A stretch of DNA of 64,000 bases, taken from the NCBI RefSeq assembly GCF_028463845.1, contig NZ_CP116805.1:186001-250000 (forward strand), read 5' to 3'. This DNA is from Gimibacter soli (GTDB lineage: Bacteria; Pseudomonadota; Alphaproteobacteria; Sphingomonadales; Kordiimonadaceae). The stretch's first letter is position 1, and every line of letters begins with the position of its first letter. A program made the translations under genes and the position numbers. Below the pieces are notes generated by a model, which saw nothing but the letters and a program-made list of their open reading frames with translations, was not told where the DNA came from and did no database searches. Positions 45,482 to 58,174 of this stretch are shown in pieces.

Positions 45482-46615
45482 TCAGGCCCGCTTGCGGCGA
45501 AGCGGCGTCACATATTTCCGCCACGCGAGCGCGATCCCGGTCCAGACCATGATGGCGGAGAAAAGCGACACGATCCCGGCGATGGTCTGTCCGATCACAC
45601 CAAGCGCCTCGCCGGTGTGCAGGAAGCGCACCATGCTGCGGGCCTTGCTGGCGGGGGTCTTGTCCTCGAATCCGGCCCATCCGGCAACCGCGCCGCTTGC
45701 CCGGTCGATCAGCAGGTCGCCCTTCTTCGTGGGTTCACCGCCCATGCCCCAATCGAGCGTGAAAGTCACCAGCGGGTCCGCCGGTTTCGGCCAGGCGAGC
45801 GTGAGGCTGGTCCAGTCCTGCCGATGGCTGCTGGCAGTGGCGAGCATGGCTGAAAGCCCGACGCCCCCTTCCAATGCAGCTGCTTCTGTCCCAGGGGCCT
45901 TATCCGGCGCACGCCCACCACGCACCGGCACTTCCTCGCCCGCCAGCCGGTAAACCAGATTGTTCGCCCATTCATAATAGAAGACGGTAGCAGTTGCCGT
46001 GATCACCACAAGCGGCACGACCGACCAGATGCCCATCACATGGTGCCAGTTGAAATCGCGCGCGTGCGCATTTGCATTCTTCTTGAAGAACAGCACCTTG
46101 CGGACATTCACCCAGCGCAGCACAGGCGGGAACCACAGATAGATGCCGGAAAGCGCGAGGAACAGGAACATCAGGTTCGCTGCCCCCGTCACCATGCGGG
46201 CCGTATCGCGCGAGGCACCTTCAAGTGCGAACCAGCGGTGGAACTGCGTGGTCCATTGCATGAAGGCCTGCATGGCGGTTGGCCCTTCGGCGATCACGCG
46301 GCCGGTGTAGGGGTCGAGATAGAGCTTGTCGCTCCGCCCCCGCACCGCCACCACAGCTGCATCAGGATCGTTCCGGTAAATCAGCCGTGCGACCGGCCGC
46401 GACGGGTCCACCGCACTGGCAAATGCGTGCAGTTCCTCGGGCGACAGGGCCGTGGCACCCTCAGGCGGCACCACATCGAACTGCCGTTCGGACCATGCCA
46501 CCATCTGCTTCTCATAGGTCAGCAGCACGCCGGTGACCGACATGGTGAGGATGACGATGCCGGCGAGGACACCGCAGATCAGGTGCGGCCAGTACAGCAG
46601 CTTGCGAAAGGGCAT
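45482..46615 (-). CDS. PepSY-associated TM protein
   Basis: 377 aa. The ATG at 46615 is favoured; an in-frame TTG at 46648 is possible and no strong SD is seen. N-terminal helix LLYWPHLICGVLAGIVILTMSVTGVLLTYE, PepSY-like domains on the outside, WHHVMGIWSVVPLVVITATATVFYY and further helices near the end (VIGQTIAGIVSLFSAIMVWTGIALAW). His residues in FHRWF and NWHHV are placed like haem/metal ligands in this family, which includes iron-reduction and siderophore uptake proteins. It lies behind the bufferin operon, 105 bases after doxX. Confidence 0.82.
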   Translation of the reverse strand: MPFRKLLYWPHLICGVLAGIVILTMSVTGVLLTYEKQMVAWSERQFDVVPPEGATALSPEELHAFASAVDPSRPVARLIYRNDPDAAVVAVRGRSDKLYLDPYTGRVIAEGPTAMQAFMQWTTQFHRWFALEGASRDTARMVTGAANLMFLFLALSGIYLWFPPVLRWVNVRKVLFFKKNANAHARDFNWHHVMGIWSVVPLVVITATATVFYYEWANNLVYRLAGEEVPVRGGRAPDKAPGTEAAALEGGVGLSAMLATASSHRQDWTSLTLAWPKPADPLVTFTLDWGMGGEPTKKGDLLIDRASGAVAGWAGFEDKTPASKARSMVRFLHTGEALGVIGQTIAGIVSLFSAIMVWTGIALAWRKYVTPLRRKRA

Positions 46616-46680
46616 GGGCGAGGTCCGCTCAGAAAAAATTGCGATCAATTCTTAACTGAAATCGGATGTACCGTCCCTGC

Positions 46681-46720: not shown

Positions 46721-47182
46721 TCAGTCCCGCTTGGCCCGGCGCGCAATCAGATGGTCAAGCGACAAACGTCCCGGGCCGTAGGCCATGATCGCCAGTGCCA
46801 GCGCGAACCAGCCAAGGTGCGTGGAGAGGAATGCCGAGGGATAGACGAAGAGCTGGATCACCAGCGCCATCACGAAAAGGCCGAGCGCGGAAACACGGGT
46901 CGCAAGCCCCAGAAGCAGCAGGACCGGCAAGGCATGCTCGGCATAGGTTGCGAGCGGTGCGGCGATATCAGCAGGGATGACAGGCAGCTGATATTCTTCT
47001 TCAAACAGATAATAGGTGCTGTCGCTGATCGTCATCAGGCCTGTCACCTTGGTGCGGGCCGATACCCAGAAAATACCGGCAAGCCCCAGCCGCAGCGTCA
47101 GTTGAACGAGATCGGCCGGGATGCGGGTGAAGAGGCGCGTGTAGGTGACTGCCAGATTAGGGGTGTCTTTTTGAGGGGTCAT
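46721..47182 (-). CDS. DoxX-family membrane protein of the bufferin operon
   Basis: 153 aa with four helices. [20 protein letters not shown] is the DoxX start and [24 protein letters not shown] the core. It overlaps the DUF2063 gene by 4 bases, so it is translated with it. DoxX proteins are regular members of bufferin/gig operons (BufD, GigT); the role is unclear, perhaps redox support for export or maturation. Confidence 0.87.
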
Positions 47183-47928
47183 TGGTCGTGCTCCTTGTTT
47201 TTATTGTTCACATCGTTCGGAACCAGCAGCCCTGACTGCACAAATCCGGCGAAGGCTCCGATCAGGCGGACGGCCTGTTCCTGGGTTGCCGTCGCGTCGA
47301 GGAGTGCGATCAGGGGAATATTGTTCACAAGCCCGGCCAGAACCGGCTCAAAATCCGCCGGGATGATCTCTTGCTGGACCCTGCCGTCCTGCGCCCAGAC
47401 AGCTATGGTTTGCGCGGTCCAGTCCGGGATCGGTGCCAGTATTTCGGCCTGATGGCGTTCCCATATTGTGCCCGCCGGGAAAGGCGAGCGGATGAGGCTG
47501 GCACCCGGCGCCAACTGGCACGGTGTTTCAATCGCCACTTCGATATCGGCGCTGCTTTCGATCCGGAATACCGGATGGTCCGGGGCGATTGATGCCACGC
47601 ACCGCGCCCATTCAATCCGCGCTACATCGGGGAGATAGGGCAGCGAACGGAGCGGCGGGAAGGCCTCCAGAAAAGCGGCGAAGGTATCGCCGTAAAGGTC
47701 AAGAATGGGCGAGACGGGCGGGTGATCGCCCACAAAAGCCCGCACAAGTGCCTCGAAATAGGCCTCCCCGACCAGTTGGCCGGTGACCGGGAATTTGGCG
47801 CCGAGAATGTCCGTCAGGCCCGCCAGAAAATTGTTCCGGTAAAGATTGAAGCGACCGCCGGTATTGATGATGCCAAGCGGCACATCCGCCGCCGGCGCGA
47901 GGACCGCCTGTGCAAATACCCGGTTCAT
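47179..47928 (-). CDS. DUF2063 partner protein of the bufferin operon (BufC-like)
   Basis: 249 aa. The N-terminal DUF2063 domain has [80 protein letters not shown], the family hallmark. A second C-terminal domain follows. Members bind the precursor and the MNIO enzyme. Overlaps MNIO and doxX by 4 bases each side, which indicates a coupled complex. Confidence 0.88.
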
Positions 47929-48818
47929 GCTGCACCCGCCAGTTTCGGCCGCATCAGCAATCGCGCGTGATCCACTTCCACCAGAAGCTCGGCAAGCGGC
48001 GGGATATTGTTATCGCGCTCGATCAGCGTCGGGCGCGGCCCGGCGAGGGCGAGGAAATCTTCATAAAGCGCCCAGACAGCATCGGCGACCGCGTCGCCGT
48101 GGGTGTCGATCAGGACGGGGCTGCCGTCTTCGTCCAGGCTTTGCTCATGGCCGGCCAGATGGATTTCGCCAACGGCGCCAAGCTGGATGCGGGAGAGCCA
48201 GTCGCGCATGTCCCACCCGTGGTTCCGGGCGGAGACATAAAGATTGTTAAGGTCCAGAAGGAGGCCGCAACCGGTGCGGTGCACGAGTTCCGCGATGAAA
48301 TCGGCCTCGAACAGGGTGTCCGACCGGAAGCGCACATAGCTTGCCGGATTTTCAAGGAGAATCCGCCGCCCGAGATATTGCTGCGCCTCGTTGATGCTCT
48401 CACCCATCCGGTCGATGGTCAGTCGGTTATAGGGGATGGGAAGAAGATCGTTGAGATAGATGCCATCGTCGCGGGACCAGGCGATATGCTCGGAAAAGCT
48501 CGCCGGTTTGACGGTATCGATCAGGTGCCGCAGCCGCGCCAGATGGTCGCGGTCGAGCGGGTCGTCACCGCCAAGCGAAAGGGCAACGCCGTGGACCGAG
48601 ACCGGCCAGACCCTGGCGACATCCTGCAGCATTTCAAGGTTTGGTCCGCCGAGCATGAAATTCTCGGCATGGACCTCGACAAAGTCGATACTTGTGGGGT
48701 TGGCCAGAAGCTGCTTCAGGTGAGGCCGCTTCAGACCAACCCCGACACCAGGGGCAAGCTCCCGCCGGTTAGCGGGGGATGGGGCTGGGGGACCGGCGAT
48801 GTCGAGCTTGCCAGCCAT
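47925..48818 (-). CDS. Multinuclear non-haem iron oxidase (DUF692, BufB-like)
   Basis: 297 aa TIM-barrel oxidase that modifies precursor cysteines, by family knowledge to 5-thiooxazoles. Metal ligand motifs: VEVHAENF, SVHGV, SEHIAW, LLENP, LLDLNN, GEIHLAGH, IDTHGD and IERDNN, complete for a tri-iron site. Starts 2 bases after the DUF2282 stop, and overlaps DUF2063 by 4 bases. It acts in the cytoplasm on the precursor before export. Confidence 0.92.
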   Translation of the reverse strand: MAGKLDIAGPPAPSPANRRELAPGVGVGLKRPHLKQLLANPTSIDFVEVHAENFMLGGPNLEMLQDVARVWPVSVHGVALSLGGDDPLDRDHLARLRHLIDTVKPASFSEHIAWSRDDGIYLNDLLPIPYNRLTIDRMGESINEAQQYLGRRILLENPASYVRFRSDTLFEADFIAELVHRTGCGLLLDLNNLYVSARNHGWDMRDWLSRIQLGAVGEIHLAGHEQSLDEDGSPVLIDTHGDAVADAVWALYEDFLALAGPRPTLIERDNNIPPLAELLVEVDHARLLMRPKLAGAA

Positions 48819-48820
48819 GG

Positions 48821-49117
48821 TCAGCTCTTTGCTTCCTCGTATTCGCTCAGCTGGCCAAAGCCGGTGGGCGAGGAAGGCGTTTCGATTGTGGTGCAGGTGC
48901 CTTTAGGAACGAGCTTCCAGGCATTGCCCTGAAAGTCGCGCTTGGAGCTGCCGGCGCAGGACGTGCCCGGCCCGGCGGCGCAATCATTGTAGCCGGCTTT
49001 CGAAATCCCGTAGCATTTCTCCTGCGGCTCACGCGCCTCGGCTGCCGAGGCGACCACCATGTTCGACATGACGACTGCGACCGCAGCCGAAAGATATGTC
49101 GCCTTCTTGATGTCCAT
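48821..49117 (-). CDS. DUF2282 bufferin-type RiPP precursor
   Basis: 98 aa. A signal peptide (1-28, ending AAEA) is followed by a core with four cysteines at 35, 46, 54 and 75. [22 protein letters not shown] and VPKGTC match the DUF2282/BufA1 precursor pattern. In characterised bufferins two Cys become thiooxazoles and two form a disulfide, and the product binds copper in the periplasm. Here the C-terminus after the last Cys runs about 23 residues ([20 protein letters not shown]) instead of the usual short GG ending. Confidence 0.9.
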
Positions 49118-49699: not shown

Positions 49700-49865
49700 T
49701 TCCAGTTCTCCTGTGTGACTCGGGTTGCATCTCGGGGGTCCGAGGTGCGGTTTCAGTTATTTTTGAGCTGTCGTTTTCAGTTCATTTCACCTTTTGCGAA
49801 CGGGGGCTGTTGTTGACCCAGCCTTGTTCCCCTCCGCGCCGGTGTATCTGCTTTTTGAACCAGCC

Positions 49866-49884
49866 AACGTTGACTGATCGGTTA
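49866..49884. promoter_or_regulatory. TetR-type operator copy 1
   Basis: AACGTTGACTGATCGGTTA. Its inner TTGACTGATCGGTTAA is a near-palindrome around GATC. It is repeated in inverted orientation at 49902-49920 with 17 of 19 positions identical. Lies in the YHS-TetR divergent region. Confidence 0.6.
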
Positions 49885-49887
49885 ATG

Positions 49888-49916
49888 TAAATAACCAAGG
49901 GTAACCGACCTGTCAA
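49888..49916 (-). promoter_or_regulatory. Candidate promoter for YHS/buf transcript
   Basis: On the minus strand, -35 TTGACA (49911-49916) with a 17-base spacer to -10 TATTTA (49888-49893). The -35 box lies inside operator copy 2, which fits repression by the divergently encoded TetR regulator. Confidence 0.45.
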
Positions 49917-49920
49917 CGTT
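49902..49920. promoter_or_regulatory. TetR-type operator copy 2 (inverted)
   Basis: TAACCGACCTGTCAACGTT; its reverse complement AACGTTGACAGGTCGGTTA matches copy 1 at 17 of 19 positions. Centres are 36 bases apart. Overlaps the candidate promoter -35. Confidence 0.6.
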
Positions 49921-50072
49921 AAATTTTCCTATCACCCGAAAATTTCTCCGAAACCCCCGTGGTAAAACGTGAAAATTCTTTATTTTCCGGCGCTATTGCC
50001 TTTGCCAGCCACCGTGATATGGTGTTGACAGAGTCGTATATGTTATAGGTATTTCGGAGAAAGCGGCCGGCC

Positions 50073-50645
50073 ATGAGCGCATCGAAGCGAGACGAACTGG
50101 TCCAGAGGGCGTTGAAGACATTCTACCAGGGTGGCTTCCACGCAATCGGGATGGACAAACTTGCCAAGGAAACGGGGGTCTCGAAGACCGCCATTTACAA
50201 GCATTTCCGCACCAAGGAGGATCTGATCCTTGCCGTGCTGCGGCTGCGGGATGAACAGTTCCGCAACTGGCTGATGCGCCGGGTGGCGGCGCTCGCCGAG
50301 GCGCCGGGCGCCCAGCTGCTGGCGATCTTCGATGCGCTGGATGAATGGTTCCGCGAATCGGATTTCAGAAGCTGCATGTTCATCAAGGCCTCGTCCGAAT
50401 ATCAGGACAGGGCCCATCCGATCCACGCCACGGCCGCCGAGCATAAAAGGCTTCTGCTGATCTATTTCACCGATCTCGCCCGCCGCGCCGGCGCGAAGGC
50501 ACCCGAAGCACTGGCGCGCGAGCTGCTGACGCTCAAGGAAGGCGCCATTGTGCTGGCCCACCTGTTCGGCCCCGACGACGCCGCCCGCGACGCCCGCCGC
50601 ACCGCCGAACGAATCCTGCAGGCGGAACTACCCGCCAAGGGGTGA
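50073..50645 (+). CDS. TetR-family transcriptional regulator
   Basis: 190 aa. N-terminal HTH: ALKTFYQGGFHAIGMDKLAKETGVSKTAIYKHFRTKEDLILAV, a full TetR signature. The ligand domain has FRSCMFIKASSEYQD with a Cys that might sense metal or oxidant. The ATG follows GGAGAAAGCGGCCGGCC. Divergent from the YHS/bufferin genes, whose intergenic region holds twin operators, so it most likely represses them. No named family match beyond TetR. Confidence 0.88.
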   Translation: MSASKRDELVQRALKTFYQGGFHAIGMDKLAKETGVSKTAIYKHFRTKEDLILAVLRLRDEQFRNWLMRRVAALAEAPGAQLLAIFDALDEWFRESDFRSCMFIKASSEYQDRAHPIHATAAEHKRLLLIYFTDLARRAGAKAPEALARELLTLKEGAIVLAHLFGPDDAARDARRTAERILQAELPAKG

Positions 50646-50648
50646 ATG

Positions 50649-50677
50649 AAAAAGGGGAGCTGGATGCTCCCCTTTTC
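50649..50677 (+). terminator. Terminator after the TetR gene
   Basis: Stem AAAAGGGGAGC/GCTCCCCTTTT with loop TGGAT, 4 bases past the stop. Confidence 0.85.
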
Positions 50678-50982
50678 GTATCTCGATTGTCGGCGACATT
50701 CTTCCGGCATTTCTGGCTCATCCTGCCGGCAGGCACGAACATCGTCGACCGGCTTAGGCGAGACCTGCATGTGCTGGGGTCGCTATCGATCGGGCTGATG
50801 ACCTTCGACTAGGATGTCGCGGAAGGCTTGAAGATTGAGCGGCAACCGGAAGGAATGCCAAACCCTGACCGCACGCAGGTCTCACGCTCAGTCATCATGG
50901 AGCAAGGATTGGCCGGGGCGGCGATGATATAGATGATATTAAGGACGGACTGTTTTCCAGCCAAACCGCACTTTTCAATTCT
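50678..50982. other. Untranslated left border of the AT-rich insertion
   Basis: About 300 bases without a supportable gene. GC-rich until about 50,900, then AT-rich, so the insertion border falls near 50,900-50,980. One short open frame ends FRHFWLILPAGTNIVDRL then TAG at about 50,810; it has no good start and I cannot match it. Confidence 0.5.
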
Positions 50983-51795
50983 TCATTCACGAAGGGCAGA
51001 AATAAGCAGCTCGCTTGAAAGAGTGCGGTTTTCTGCGTTGCCCGCAATGACGCTATGCCTCCAAAGTTTTTTCTGGTCTCCAAAACCACAATATAGATCT
51101 CTAATACTTTGATGGTCCGCATTGGTGAGTGCGAATGATACGCCTCGAGCATGCGCCCTTTTCAACGCATCACGTAATCTTTCCTGATCATTCCAAGAAA
51201 ATATTTTCTGATTATATTTAACAAATCCATTCAAATTATGGCGAACTGTGTACGGAGGATCAACGAATATAAAATCACCTGTATGTGCTTCGTTGATTGC
51301 TTCCTCGAAGTCTTTGTTCTCCAAAATGACGCCCCTAAGTGCCTTGGACCAGGCTCCGAAATTATCGCTTTCAAAAATTACTGTTTGCTTAGTGCCAATA
51401 GGGACATTGAATTCGCCTTTTAAGTTCTCTCGATACAACCCATTCCAACAGGTTCGGTTGAGGTAGAGAAATTGTGCTGCTCTTTCTACGGCAGAATCAA
51501 ATTGCTGTGCACGAGTTTGATAGTAGTATTCCTTGGAATGTGATTCTGCATGTCCTGCCAAGAGAATTTCAAAATCCTCCAGATTATCTCTAATCTGCTG
51601 ATATAACTCAATCAGTCGCCCATTGAAGTCGCTCAAAATCGCATTTCTAGGCTGATTCTCGAAGAATACCGCGCCCCCCCCCAGAAAGGGCTCAATATAC
51701 TTTCCGCTGAACTCAGGAAGTCTGAACTGGCCACTTTCAAAGAGCCAACGTTTGCCACCCGCCCATTTGAGAAATGGCTTAAGGGGTTTCCGCAT
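50983..51795 (-). CDS. Dam-type DNA adenine methylase (D12 class)
   Basis: 270 aa. N6-adenine methyltransferase with motif X KPFLKWAGGK (7-15), motif I EPFLGGGAVFF (35-45) and catalytic DPPY at 179-182. Typical Dam length. Base composition is clearly AT-richer than the flanking genes. It starts inside the stop of the 783-residue gene (TAATG), so the two are translated together. It probably protects host DNA against the nuclease partner, or marks a site for it; the recognition sequence cannot be read from the protein. Confidence 0.92.
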   Translation of the reverse strand: MRKPLKPFLKWAGGKRWLFESGQFRLPEFSGKYIEPFLGGGAVFFENQPRNAILSDFNGRLIELYQQIRDNLEDFEILLAGHAESHSKEYYYQTRAQQFDSAVERAAQFLYLNRTCWNGLYRENLKGEFNVPIGTKQTVIFESDNFGAWSKALRGVILENKDFEEAINEAHTGDFIFVDPPYTVRHNLNGFVKYNQKIFSWNDQERLRDALKRAHARGVSFALTNADHQSIRDLYCGFGDQKKLWRHSVIAGNAENRTLSSELLISALRE

Positions 51796-54146
51796 TATAA
51801 TGGCACCTTCGGGCTAACTTCAGAGCGAAGCCAATCAACGAATTCGAGGTCATCGTCGGTATAGGTCTTAAGTTGGTTTTTGTGAGCCGCTATGTTTCGA
51901 AGCTCATTGAATGTCTGAATCCAACCAAGATAGTATTTTTGACCCGAACGCTCGCCAGGCCGAGCATTTTTGAATACATGCTCAAAGTGTGACCAGTTAT
52001 TGGGCTGTTTCACAATTTCCGCTAAATCAACAATGTTCAAGTAAGCTTCTTTTGGCTTCCTGCGCGCTTTATCTTTTTGTTGTGCATCGAAAGCATTTCT
52101 TCTAATCCTTTCGCTCTCCACACCGATTTCCCAAAAAGCTGGCTCATCGCTAGGTAGGCGATGTGTACCATGGACTTTCTTCAAAGTATCTATAACAAAG
52201 TCTGTCAGGCGCTCAGATAGTTTCATCAAAAACTGATTTACCTCATCAATTTTCTCAGAGCTAATTTGTTCCATCCATCTCTGAAACTCTTCCCCACCAA
52301 AGTCTGGGGTCTCTTCTCGTAGTATGCTCATCAAATTATAGGCATACTCCTTGACACCGCCTTCGCCAAATTTGCGTGAAAACTTGGATCGTATATCTTC
52401 ATCAGATGCACGCCCAATATATTCAAAGATTGGCTGACAGAACTCCAGAATGTGAGCCACAAAATCACTAGGTTTCATTAAATCAAAATCGAGAGATTTT
52501 TTATGTGAAAGGTATGTGATGGACTCAGCGATTATGGTTAGGTGAGCACGAATACCCGGATTGACGGCTATATAAGCTTCCCGGCCAGCTTCCCAGCGTT
52601 GGGGGTGGGCTGCCCTAACCGCTTCGAAATAACCTCGCAAAATAAATCCTGCTCGTTCCACGGTAGCCTCATCGGTCTCCGCTGAGAGTGGACCGGGGGC
52701 TACAGATTTGCCCATTACCTTTCCAATCAATCCAGAGCGACGTATGCCATTTACCGCTTCGGATATTGTCAAATTTTGGTTTTGCTCTGGAGGGACCCCG
52801 GGGATCGCAAACCGACGTATCAATGGACTAGTTTTATCCGTGTTCAGAGATCTAACTATAGCTGACCCAAGCGCACTCAAAGCAGTTGTCGGCTCAGCGT
52901 CTCCCATTCTTATATCTGCTAGAAGACTAACAAGCAGACTTTTGGGGACGCTTTTTTGTTTGTGATTGATCGTAATGAATAGATCTGCCTCTTTTTGGAC
53001 GGCCATTTTTTCAAAAGCGAGAACGAATAAGCTCTGATCAAGATATGCTTCGTCCAGATGGGAAAAGCCGTAGAGCCGATGTTGCCCATCAATTATCCAT
53101 GCTGAGCGATATTTTGATGGCAATGTCAGCCAACCAAATTTGATATTTGGGTCAGTATTCTCAGAGTTCGATATAAGATCAAATCTTGGCTCATCTGAAA
53201 AGTTAACCAAGATATTTGTGGGGAAATAGCCGCCTTTTTCAATGAATGAACCAATTTCTTTAATTCTAGGAGCTGAAATCATTCGTTGGTAAGCGGGGCG
53301 CCCATCTGGATGGTTGAGCGCTTGGTGGTTTATAAATGCGATTTTCAGCAAATGTCGAGGTGACGTAACGAAACTATAGAATGTCTCCCCACCAATTTTT
53401 CCCCTTATCGCGGGAATCTTTACATCGGTGAGTCCAGGTACTTTTTGCCCCCTCAAGAATTCCCCGAGAATCTGGAAGCGACCTGCTGGTCCCATATGCT
53501 TAACAAACGTCTCAAAGTACTGAAGTTCATTTTCGGTAATAATTTTTATGTCATAGGCATCAGCCCGCTCGATATCTGGAACTGACCATAGAATATTGTC
53601 GGTCACATAAATCCAGATAATCTTTGGTCTTGCGCGTCCTTCAAACCGTTTGAAGACAACTTCGCGAAAATGTTGTTGTAAAGAAATCGTTTCATGCAAA
53701 TCTTTCTGTAATGTCCGTCGGCCACGTTCGCTTCGCGATTTGCACTCAATGATAAGTGCTGTTTCCTCGTCTTCGGCATATACATCAATCTGCTTCTTGC
53801 CTGCTGACCCGTCTGGTCGTGTGTATTCAATGTTGAAGTTTGTTCCGTTTAAGGTTGGATAGCCCATCGCATGCATTAGGCACCACACGCGGTCTTCTAG
53901 CCACTTATCGTGCCTTTTCGGTCGCTTCATACTTGTCGTGCGCTTACCAGCACGGACAACAATCCAACCCTTTTCCTCTTCAATAGAGACGTCCGCCGGA
54001 TGAACACTCTTTAATTCGTAATTTCTCTTACGCCTGCGCTGCTCACTTGCGAGCTCTGCCGCTGCGAGTACCAAAGGCGATAACGAGGAATTCTCGTTAG
54101 TAATGTTCAATTGGTCGGGTGAAAAACTTGAGTTGTTTTGATTCAT
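51795..54146 (-). CDS. Multidomain DGQHR protein with N-terminal nuclease and C-terminal HEPN motifs
   Basis: 783 aa. Residues 80-180 look like a PD-(D/E)xK nuclease domain: QIDVYAEDEETALIIECKS gives Asp121, Glu134 and Lys136. Residues 230-480 hold a DndB-like DGQHR domain (IIDGQHRLYG, 353-357; TINHKQKSVPKSLL). The C-terminus has a Swt1/HEPN-like helical domain, with RNIAAH (Arg750-x4-His755) matching the RNase motif. The intermediate part is helical and unassigned. AT-rich, unlike the chromosome. First of a two-gene unit with the methylase. I infer a defence role; no homologue is named here. Confidence 0.8.
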   Translation of the reverse strand: MNQNNSSFSPDQLNITNENSSLSPLVLAAAELASEQRRRKRNYELKSVHPADVSIEEEKGWIVVRAGKRTTSMKRPKRHDKWLEDRVWCLMHAMGYPTLNGTNFNIEYTRPDGSAGKKQIDVYAEDEETALIIECKSRSERGRRTLQKDLHETISLQQHFREVVFKRFEGRARPKIIWIYVTDNILWSVPDIERADAYDIKIITENELQYFETFVKHMGPAGRFQILGEFLRGQKVPGLTDVKIPAIRGKIGGETFYSFVTSPRHLLKIAFINHQALNHPDGRPAYQRMISAPRIKEIGSFIEKGGYFPTNILVNFSDEPRFDLISNSENTDPNIKFGWLTLPSKYRSAWIIDGQHRLYGFSHLDEAYLDQSLFVLAFEKMAVQKEADLFITINHKQKSVPKSLLVSLLADIRMGDAEPTTALSALGSAIVRSLNTDKTSPLIRRFAIPGVPPEQNQNLTISEAVNGIRRSGLIGKVMGKSVAPGPLSAETDEATVERAGFILRGYFEAVRAAHPQRWEAGREAYIAVNPGIRAHLTIIAESITYLSHKKSLDFDLMKPSDFVAHILEFCQPIFEYIGRASDEDIRSKFSRKFGEGGVKEYAYNLMSILREETPDFGGEEFQRWMEQISSEKIDEVNQFLMKLSERLTDFVIDTLKKVHGTHRLPSDEPAFWEIGVESERIRRNAFDAQQKDKARRKPKEAYLNIVDLAEIVKQPNNWSHFEHVFKNARPGERSGQKYYLGWIQTFNELRNIAAHKNQLKTYTDDDLEFVDWLRSEVSPKVPL

Positions 54147-54453
54147 TGAAGCAGGTCAGTCCCAGTATGGTTGGGTTTCATTGCCTCAATTGAAGGCTGT
54201 GCCACCAGCTCATGTCAAGAATTCATTCGTCTTATACGAGTATACTTGTCGGATTTCCATCCATGCAGATCCAAGTCTAAACGGGCGGAAATTGGAGAGC
54301 CGATAAGCACAATATCGAATGCTTCTGAGCGCTAGAGGATACTGCGCAAAACACCAAAGCTGCAACCTGTTGCACTTTATGTGTCACGGAGATGCATTTA
54401 ATGCGTCACCCGTTGCACTTTATGTATCACCCGACAAGATGATCGCTGCCTGC
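54147..54453. other. Untranslated right border between defence genes and gyrB
   Basis: About 310 bases with no supportable gene. Holds the likely promoter region of the 783-residue gene, an AGTATACT palindrome (54239-54246) and three copies of a TGCAYTTWATG..TCAC repeat (54369-54430). A 16-bp palindrome lies over the gyrB stop at 54454-54469. Confidence 0.6.
54369..54430. repeat. Three copies of a ~19-bp repeat next to gyrB
   Basis: GTTGCACTTTATGTGTCAC (54369-54387) and GTTGCACTTTATGTATCAC (54412-54430) differ at one position. Between them, GCATTTAATGCGTCACC (54394-54410) is a third, degenerate copy. Multiple short end repeats of this kind are known for some transposable elements (IS21 type), but no transposase is present. 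Could also be protein-binding sites. Confidence 0.7.

Positions 54454-58174
<3,721 letters not shown>

Follow-up and report, generated by a model that had tools for sequence, protein, structure and literature searches.

A predicted effector gene and an adenine methylase gene in a low-GC block beside gyrB

The window that we analyzed is a 64,000-nucleotide stretch of the Gimibacter soli genome (contig NZ_CP116805.1, positions 186,001 to 250,000 of the forward strand), and the coordinates given below are positions within it. An original prediction, made from the letters of the window alone, had singled out a pair of genes there as a candidate defense system. The first, at 51795..54146 on the minus strand, encodes a 783-residue protein, here called the effector, in which the open reading frame (ORF), its translation, family matches and an AlphaFold model point to a PD-(D/E)xK DNase domain, a DGQHR (ParB-like) domain, a helical middle and a HEPN RNase domain, in that order. 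The second, at 50983..51795 on the same strand, encodes a 270-residue N6-adenine DNA methyltransferase of the Dam (D12) family, assigned from its matches to TIGR00571 and DpnM. Both ORFs lie where the prediction had placed them, and the stop codon of the effector gene overlaps the start codon of the methylase gene in the string TAATG, base 51795 being common to both.

The pair fills a block of ~3.6 kilobases (kb) that runs from gyrB to a TetR-type gene (50850..54460, no strand, ends approximate) and was delimited by its composition and by its absence from the counterpart in another genome of the same genus, G388. The G+C content of the block is about 38–54% versus 56–70% in the adjacent kilobases. 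G388, the single other genome of the genus that was examined, has no match to the pair in the 15 kb beside gyrB, whereas gyrB and the gene at window positions 45482–46648 have counterparts there with 90% and 86% DNA identity, respectively. The gap between gyrB and the counterpart of 45482–46648 spans 2.4 kb in G388 versus 7.8 kb in the window, with other genes inside. We take the gene pair to be an acquired insert at a variable site, as anticipated by the original prediction, which had described an AT-rich insertion next to gyrB.

Three predicted modules in a single effector chain

The AlphaFold model of the whole effector had a mean predicted local distance difference test (pLDDT) score of 88.7. 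Searching the solved structures by sequence, with the effector alone or with a profile of 75 effectors, returned no useful relative; Foldseek by itself returned nothing for the whole model at an E value of 0.001 (the best entry was VC1899, at 1.2e-3) and no significant match for the HEPN part. The fold statements that follow rest on re-scoring with VIA-align.

Residues 79–215 (53502..53912, minus strand) make up a Card1-like PD-(D/E)xK domain with the putative catalytic triad D121, E134 and K136, called from VIA-align and from conservation of the triad. Over residues 79–214, VIA-align placed the effector with AF1548 (1y88; Z 11.7, root-mean-square deviation (rmsd) 2.3, 117 residues aligned), and for the region around the nuclease domain it gave VC1899 at Z 10.3 and the best Card1, Can2 and Cdn1 entries at 9.7–9.9 (Card1 at 9.9). 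The Pfam family Card1_endonuc (PF09002) matched the effector below its gathering score (22.7 of 26.4 bits, E 8e-5).

The DGQHR domain spans residues 243–400 (52947..53420, minus strand) and matched TIGR03187 with an E value of 4e-44 and 151.4 bits versus a curated cut-off of 58.85. Over residues 249–398, VIA-align aligned PadC and ParB proteins that bind cytidine triphosphate at Z 7.2–7.6 (93–100 residues, rmsd 2.3–2.8); a Z below 8 is weak by itself, and the ParB-like assignment is decided by the sequence match. The DGQHR motif itself occupies residues 353–357 (53076..53090, minus strand), constitutes a predicted nucleoside triphosphate (NTP) site and occurs in 75 of 75 full-length effectors, a count that is partly so by construction because the pattern used in the search for relatives contained IDGQH; the counts given below for the HEPN residues and the DNase triad are free of this constraint.

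The HEPN domain covers residues 632–783 (51798..52253, minus strand), which in the whole-model comparison aligned with Csm6' at Z 7.7. When residues 600–783 were modeled separately (pLDDT 90.4), the first eight VIA-align rows were HEPN-family entries and the ninth was titled riboendonuclease, with Z scores of 5.1–7.8. At the top stood Csm6' (Z 7.8, rmsd 2.8, 99 residues aligned), AbiF (7.8, 5.0, 162) and HepT (6.2, 3.4, 103), and SO_3166 was also among the first rows. Since a Z below ~13 is modest for a helical domain, the HEPN call is carried by the single family that fills the top rows together with the conserved motif RNIAAH (residues 750–755; 51882..51899, minus strand), which has the RxxxxH form of HEPN catalytic motifs and in which R750 and H755 are conserved. 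The Pfam family HEPN_Swt1 (PF18731) was below its gathering score on the effector (17.7 of 27.5 bits, E 0.073), and 15 of 73 relatives matched it at an E value of 0.01. (Note that an Rfam scan of 49700–54700 gave no family at gathering score, and hence no known non-coding RNA family of the kind used by a relative such as AbiF.)

Thus the PD-(D/E)xK and HEPN calls rest on fold and conservation, because the sequence scores fall under the Pfam cut-offs; judged by sequence, the family assignments of the DGQHR part (TIGR03187) and of the methylase (TIGR00571) are beyond doubt. The original prediction had named D121, E134, K136, DGQHR at 353–357 and RNIAAH at 750–755, all of which are present in the translation, and structural matches were found for each of its three proposed modules, so that its proposal did not founder for want of a recognizable fold.

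The neighboring enzyme is the Dam-type adenine methylase that had been proposed. It matched TIGR00571 with an E value of 1.1e-67 (228.5 bits versus a cut-off of 114.85) and PF02086 with 1e-47, its closest solved relative is DpnM (2dpm, 2.6e-53), and it is the sole PF02086 match in the genome. The window enzyme has the catalytic DPPY, and so do 63 of 64 aligned methylases, the exception (L068) being a short ORF; from these sequences the D12 methylases look active. In E. coli Dam, the residues that contact GATC include the Asn and Arg of an NGLxR loop and a later Tyr. The window enzyme keeps the Asn and Arg but not the later Tyr, so that GATC is only a plausible target for it.

A modification-type gene accompanies the effector in all evaluable loci

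A scan of genome contigs with the IDGQH-containing pattern passed 162 relatives of the effector, of which the best 80 (79 loci) were analyzed. Near-full-length relatives also came from IMG/VR (7 of 30), and 5 of 11 relatives on plasmids cover at least 80% of the effector; among phage records the effector had no match at 1e-5. Three of 385 genomes of the class, including that of the window, hold a relative. The effector loci are spread over 13 named phyla, among them the archaeal Methanobacteriota, with the proviso that single phylum labels may be wrong because many of the loci are contigs of metagenome-assembled genomes. Conservation was counted over a 75-row alignment of full-length effectors, for which rows of at least 740 residues were required; 4 identical copies were omitted from it, as were 12 loci whose ORFs are short, truncated or frameshifted. 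For the domain assignments, 73 relatives were aligned. For the census of partners, we used 86 loci, with the window excluded and identical copies removed, and searched for a modification-type gene within 2.5 kb of the effector. The census leaves out L004–L006 and the IMG/VR loci L095–L117, which fall short of full length and match over the DGQHR domain.

A modification-type gene neighbors the effector in 83 of 83 evaluable loci; the remaining three of the 86 end at a contig edge. The partner is a D12 methylase in 63 loci, an MT-A70 methylase in 6, another D12-like methylase in 1 (L023), a radical S-adenosylmethionine (radical-SAM) protein in 11 and a GHKL ATPase only in 2. In other words, 70 of the 83 have a methylase as neighbor, and radical-SAM and/or GHKL-ATPase genes take its place in the other 13. 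(As for the two ATPase-only loci, a radical-SAM gene lies further off in L087, and in L080 the contig provides no more than 1.2 kb of sequence upstream of the effector.) In 62 of 63 loci the best-matching D12 gene shares the strand of the effector, and in 60 of 63 no more than 30 bases separate the two. Two weak cases are counted here as D12: in L068 the gene is on the opposite strand at a distance of 891 bases and the ORFs are short, and in L047 it lies 333 bases upstream. Methylase matches are concentrated at the effector, with 71 in the 163.7 kb within 1 kb of it versus 2 in the 814.6 kb beyond 2.5 kb. The MT-A70 assignment was made by Pfam in both loci tested (L025 and L071) and by similarity to L025 in the other four. 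In two IMG/VR loci (L092 and L093), the gene directly upstream of the effector encodes a D12 methylase, and an MT-A70-type methylase lies 3–5 kb away.

The original prediction had expected a neighboring D12 methylase. This holds for 63 of the 86 loci, but 20 more have another modification-type gene, and so the methylase is exchangeable. Consistent with this, the best effector tree, with the contig-edge row L054 left out, has 7 partner changes, and the well-supported branches force at least 6 changes for the D12 label, 2 for the radical-SAM label and 4 for the MT-A70 label; with L054 treated as a group of its own, the number rises to 8 (7 forced for D12). This was a quick tree of full-length effectors, with long rows at L071 and L083 and a long-branch warning at L075/L078. 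The MT-A70 partners are barely clustered on it (4 changes, a number as low in 46 of 500 shuffles), and the effector of L020 is 66–73% identical to D12-linked relatives in the clade of the window, yet has an MT-A70-type partner. By eye, and without a formal test, no domain of the effector, the ParB-like part included, appeared specially diverged after an exchange of partner or methylase. The exchanges indicate that the effector seems to need a kind of modification enzyme rather than one particular protein.

The radical-SAM branch has a gene set of its own. Its GHKL ATPases score above the Pfam cut-off; the radical-SAM matches are below it (E 3.5e-5 to 0.007), as is a B12-binding match in L094, and the radical-SAM name is backed by plasmid annotation, by PHROG 9298 ('radical SAM domain protein', 5.8e-39) and by a CxxxCxxC motif. 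In four plasmid loci (L154–L157; Rhizobium twice, Bradyrhizobium and Roseomonas) a DGQHR protein, a radical-SAM protein and a GHKL ATPase are found with a DEAD/DEAH helicase block, and a separate ParB-domain protein lies beside that block in three of the four inspected. The plasmids of Agrobacterium and Novosphingobium (L007 and L008) carry the fused effector instead of the helicase block. Genes for a PIN-like protein and for a second GHKL-type ATP-binding protein lie near the radical-SAM sets, except in L155. The presence of either a helicase block or a fused effector beside the same set fits the effector being an exchangeable restriction part on a modification core. The trio of DGQHR protein, radical-SAM protein and GHKL ATPase, which recurs on alphaproteobacterial plasmids, is a candidate for such a DNA-modification core, in which the radical-SAM and GHKL-ATPase partners would presumably modify DNA. 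If so, a new kind of DNA modification may exist in this branch.

The HEPN residues are invariant and the DNase triad is not

R750 and H755 of the HEPN motif are each present in 75 of 75 full-length effectors and are two of the four invariant columns over the HEPN stretch of 73 rows. Among the 12 loci dropped from the alignment, the motif is readable in 8, whereas three (L062, L066 and L068) end ahead of it and L073 allowed no judgment. In the DNase domain, D121 is kept in 74 of 75 effectors, E134 in 70 and K136 in 55, the triad being intact in 55 and lost in 20. It is intact in 51 of 56 effectors linked to a D12 methylase, 3 of 5 linked to an MT-A70 methylase, the single one linked to the other methylase, and none of the 12 of radical-SAM type (a class that here includes L080 on its ATPase alone); it is lost in five D12-linked members and in the single contig-edge row. 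A Fisher test of radical-SAM type against triad loss gave p = 2e-9, a value that ignores relatedness; the linkage to radical SAM had at least two origins, each with loss of the triad, and these two independent pairs are too few for significance (p = 0.5).

The catalytic residues named in the original prediction are therefore maintained throughout in the HEPN domain and almost throughout at D121 and E134, but the DNase triad is not a constant feature. Because the HEPN Arg and His are kept in every full-length effector and the triad is lost in some, we read RNA cleavage as the constant output and DNA cleavage as an option; to judge from these residues, the HEPN RNase looks like the constant effector activity and the DNase like an optional one. 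All 75 effectors, including those in which the catalytic Lys is lost, keep Cys135 (53742–53744), the residue that separates this Lys from the catalytic Glu in the DNase domain.

Relation to known systems

The relative on plasmid pNL1 of Novosphingobium aromaticivorans (L008) is probably the protein Saro_3948. A 2013 survey tabulates Saro_3948 as a HEPN domain of the Abi2/Swt1 group, 'mostly active', fused to a ParB-like domain (Anantharaman et al., PMC3710099), and its passages on such proteins name no N-terminal PD-(D/E)xK domain, no modification partner and no system. A table in the same survey lists MAE_28990-type HEPN proteins in an operon with a ParB nuclease and a DNA methylase (PMC3710099); as tabulated, this type brings HEPN, ParB and methylase functions together as our pair does, but in separate genes and with a different HEPN family. 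We found no description of the pair, of its partners or of a named system in the open literature, a search whose scope did not extend to most subscription papers or to bioRxiv's own holdings. The original prediction knew of no named system with this domain order; a fusion of ParB-like and Swt1-like HEPN domains had, however, been tabulated in 2013.

DGQHR and DGQQR domains belong to the ParB-like superfamily and are predicted or shown to be NTP switches (PMC4619093, PMC10952713). In DndI, the nuclease distinguishes marked from unmarked DNA only with ATP, the arginine of DGQQR is needed, and the protein harms cells that lack the mark (PMC11662687); in SspE, R133, which is essential for GTP hydrolysis, couples recognition of the mark to licensing of the nuclease (PMC13251355). 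SspABCD–SspE and IscS–DndBCDE–DndI resemble our pair in that a DGQ(Q/H)R ParB-like nucleoside triphosphatase (NTPase) fused to a nuclease is encoded with a module that modifies DNA as a self mark. They differ in that SspE and DndI combine DUF262 (DGQQR) with an HNH nickase, whereas the effector combines a TIGR03187-type DGQHR domain with PD-(D/E)xK and HEPN domains, and in that their mark is phosphorothioate, whereas the partners here are adenine methylases or radical-SAM-type genes. Membership in the SspE/DndI/GmrSD group was rejected, as the Pfam matches of the effector up to an E value of 1 include neither DUF262 nor DUF1524, its motif is DGQHR and its C-terminus is HEPN-like.

Other systems share single elements with the effector. 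According to passages of one source (PMC10952713), the type IV enzymes GmrSD and BrxU join a ParB-like NTPase to a nuclease but attack modified phage DNA through DUF1524 (HNH-type) nucleases, in contrast to the neighboring methylase found here, and PD-T4-2 likewise brings a ParB-type (DUF262) domain and a HEPN domain together in one defense system; PD-T4-2 differs in its DUF262 and in its HEPN family (PF18735), and those passages name no methylase or PD-(D/E)xK domain for it. In the sole sequence comparison made with it, PD-T4-2 was not among the PADLOC matches of the effector. The type III CRISPR accessory nucleases Card1, Can2 and Cdn1 share the nuclease fold, but the sensor of the effector is a ParB-like domain. 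An architecture of the CARF–Card1 kind was rejected, since the 78 residues ahead of the nuclease fold are too few for a CARF domain.

No system-specific model in PADLOC-DB of 2023 recognized the pair. The effector matched only DpdB (best), DndB and, weakly, CARF, Csx1 and AbiD models, and the window methylase matched mainly general methylase models (PD-Lambda-5_B at 40 bits versus 320 for the best). A nuclease gene beside a DNA methylase gene, the linkage of type II-like restriction-modification systems, occurs in the 70 methylase-linked loci among the 83 evaluable ones. Taken together, the sequences suggest a conserved two-gene module, for which we found no name, that would be a variant of modification-guarded defense with a predicted function.

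A model in which a self mark guards the effector, and its alternatives

We give roughly an even chance to the reading that the pair is a self-mark-guarded toxin or restriction module, whose effector would be turned on by unmarked DNA. In such a module, the methylase would place N6-methyladenine on host DNA, and the effector would scan DNA by means of its ParB-like DGQHR domain, which would act as a switch driven by NTP. Self DNA that bears the mark would make the switch turn over, with the effector let go or kept inactive; invading DNA without the mark, or a failure of marking, would leave the switch on. The HEPN domain would then cut RNA and, in most members, the Card1-like domain would also cut DNA, with the outcome that infection is stopped or the cell becomes dormant. 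The sequences and models themselves show the predicted domain anatomy, the conserved catalytic sites and the ever-present, exchangeable modification-type neighbor; which way the switch works, what the mark is, what the enzymes do and whether the pair acts against viruses are what we infer. We lean toward the mark holding the effector in check, rather than arming it, because the set examined contains no orphans, although the opposite sign is possible. A broader proposal, which we regard as possible but doubtful, is that these loci confer mark-guarded RNase immunity that resembles restriction-modification, with HEPN RNA cleavage as the conserved output, a dispensable DNase, and a mark that may come from any of several unrelated adenine methylases or, in their place, from a radical-SAM modification of DNA that is undescribed and possibly dependent on cobalamin.

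Several considerations weigh against the reading as a guarded module. We know of no activity, mark or phage phenotype for any member. Should the effector recognize one unmethylated sequence, the unrelated methylases that replace one another would have to share a target. Orphans could exist among the lower-scoring relatives outside the best 80 of 162. Moreover, there is little defense-island signal: flanking ORFs of at least 130 residues within 7.5 kb, partners left out, numbered 135 in 14 of the 86 loci and matched seven PADLOC families at an E value of 1e-15 (mad3 in three ORFs; two PDC-M36A models, mad8, TnsB, DrmC and 2OG in one each). A Pfam scan of the same flanks at 1e-8 gave 117 families, of which none among the 25 listed occurred in more than three ORFs, and included one portal and one terminase protein; having no control set, the flank scan supports neither side strongly. 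Finally, marked DNA stimulates the NTPase of SspE and DndI, and SspE needs the mark for defense (PMC13251355, PMC11662687), so that the sign could be opposite here.

This last point is the basis of an alternative that we consider rather unlikely, in which the effector is activated by the mark in the manner of SspE; an N6-methyladenine self mark would arm the ParB-like domain, and the methylase would be a licensing enzyme and not a protector. SspE and DndI (DGQQR) are the nearest mechanistic precedents, and a domain that reads methyladenine generically would account for D12 and MT-A70 methylases replacing one another. However, if the partner were a licensing enzyme, orphan effectors should be tolerated, as they would cost little while dormant, and none of the 83 evaluable loci is without a partner.

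An addiction module, which strikes us as quite improbable, would be a methylase-linked toxin–antitoxin pair in which segregants that lose the methylase, and with it the mark, are killed by the HEPN toxin thus set free, and phage defense is incidental. It would accord with the mobile setting (the low-GC block that is absent from the same place in G388, the copies on plasmids and in 7 IMG/VR contigs), with HEPN as the constant element and with flanks poor in PADLOC genes, but a DNase whose triad is intact in 55 of 75 effectors and a ParB-like domain of the DNA-sensing type exceed the needs of a simple toxin. Restriction systems also behave as addiction modules, and this explanation therefore overlaps with that of a guarding mark.

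It is highly improbable that the fused protein serves mainly to regulate or assist DNA modification and is not an effector: DndB and DpdB, which share the DGQHR domain and of which DpdB is its best PADLOC match, are described as a regulator and an ATPase helper of modification, respectively (PMC10853773, PMC12839542), but they belong to phosphorothioate or deazaguanine modification systems (Dnd and Dpd), the protein falls far under their equivalog cut-offs (23.8 of 328 bits for TIGR03233 and 82.3 of 300 bits for NF041060, on which a plain DndB or DpdB was rejected), and it has two extra nuclease-type folds, with the HEPN Arg and His invariant.

If the guarding-mark reading is correct, a widespread system, for which we found no name, ties DNA self-marking directly to RNA destruction within a single protein, and the pair would offer a simple two-gene model for the reading of DNA marks by ParB-like NTPase domains. 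The exchange of partners makes the question of what the DGQHR domain senses directly testable.

Other features near the insert

Between gyrB and the insert, at 54365–54433, a 21-base unit with the core TGCACTTTATGTRTCAC is repeated imperfectly in tandem, about three times; allowing up to three mismatches, this core was found in those three places and at one more site in the genome. These repeats may be the end of an IS21-like element. Next to the insert, at 46721–49117, are genes for a small secreted-type peptide, a DUF692-like protein and a DoxX-like protein, which resemble a bufferin-type metal-response cluster and are putatively assigned to one. In G388, the space matching 46721–49117 is occupied by other genes.

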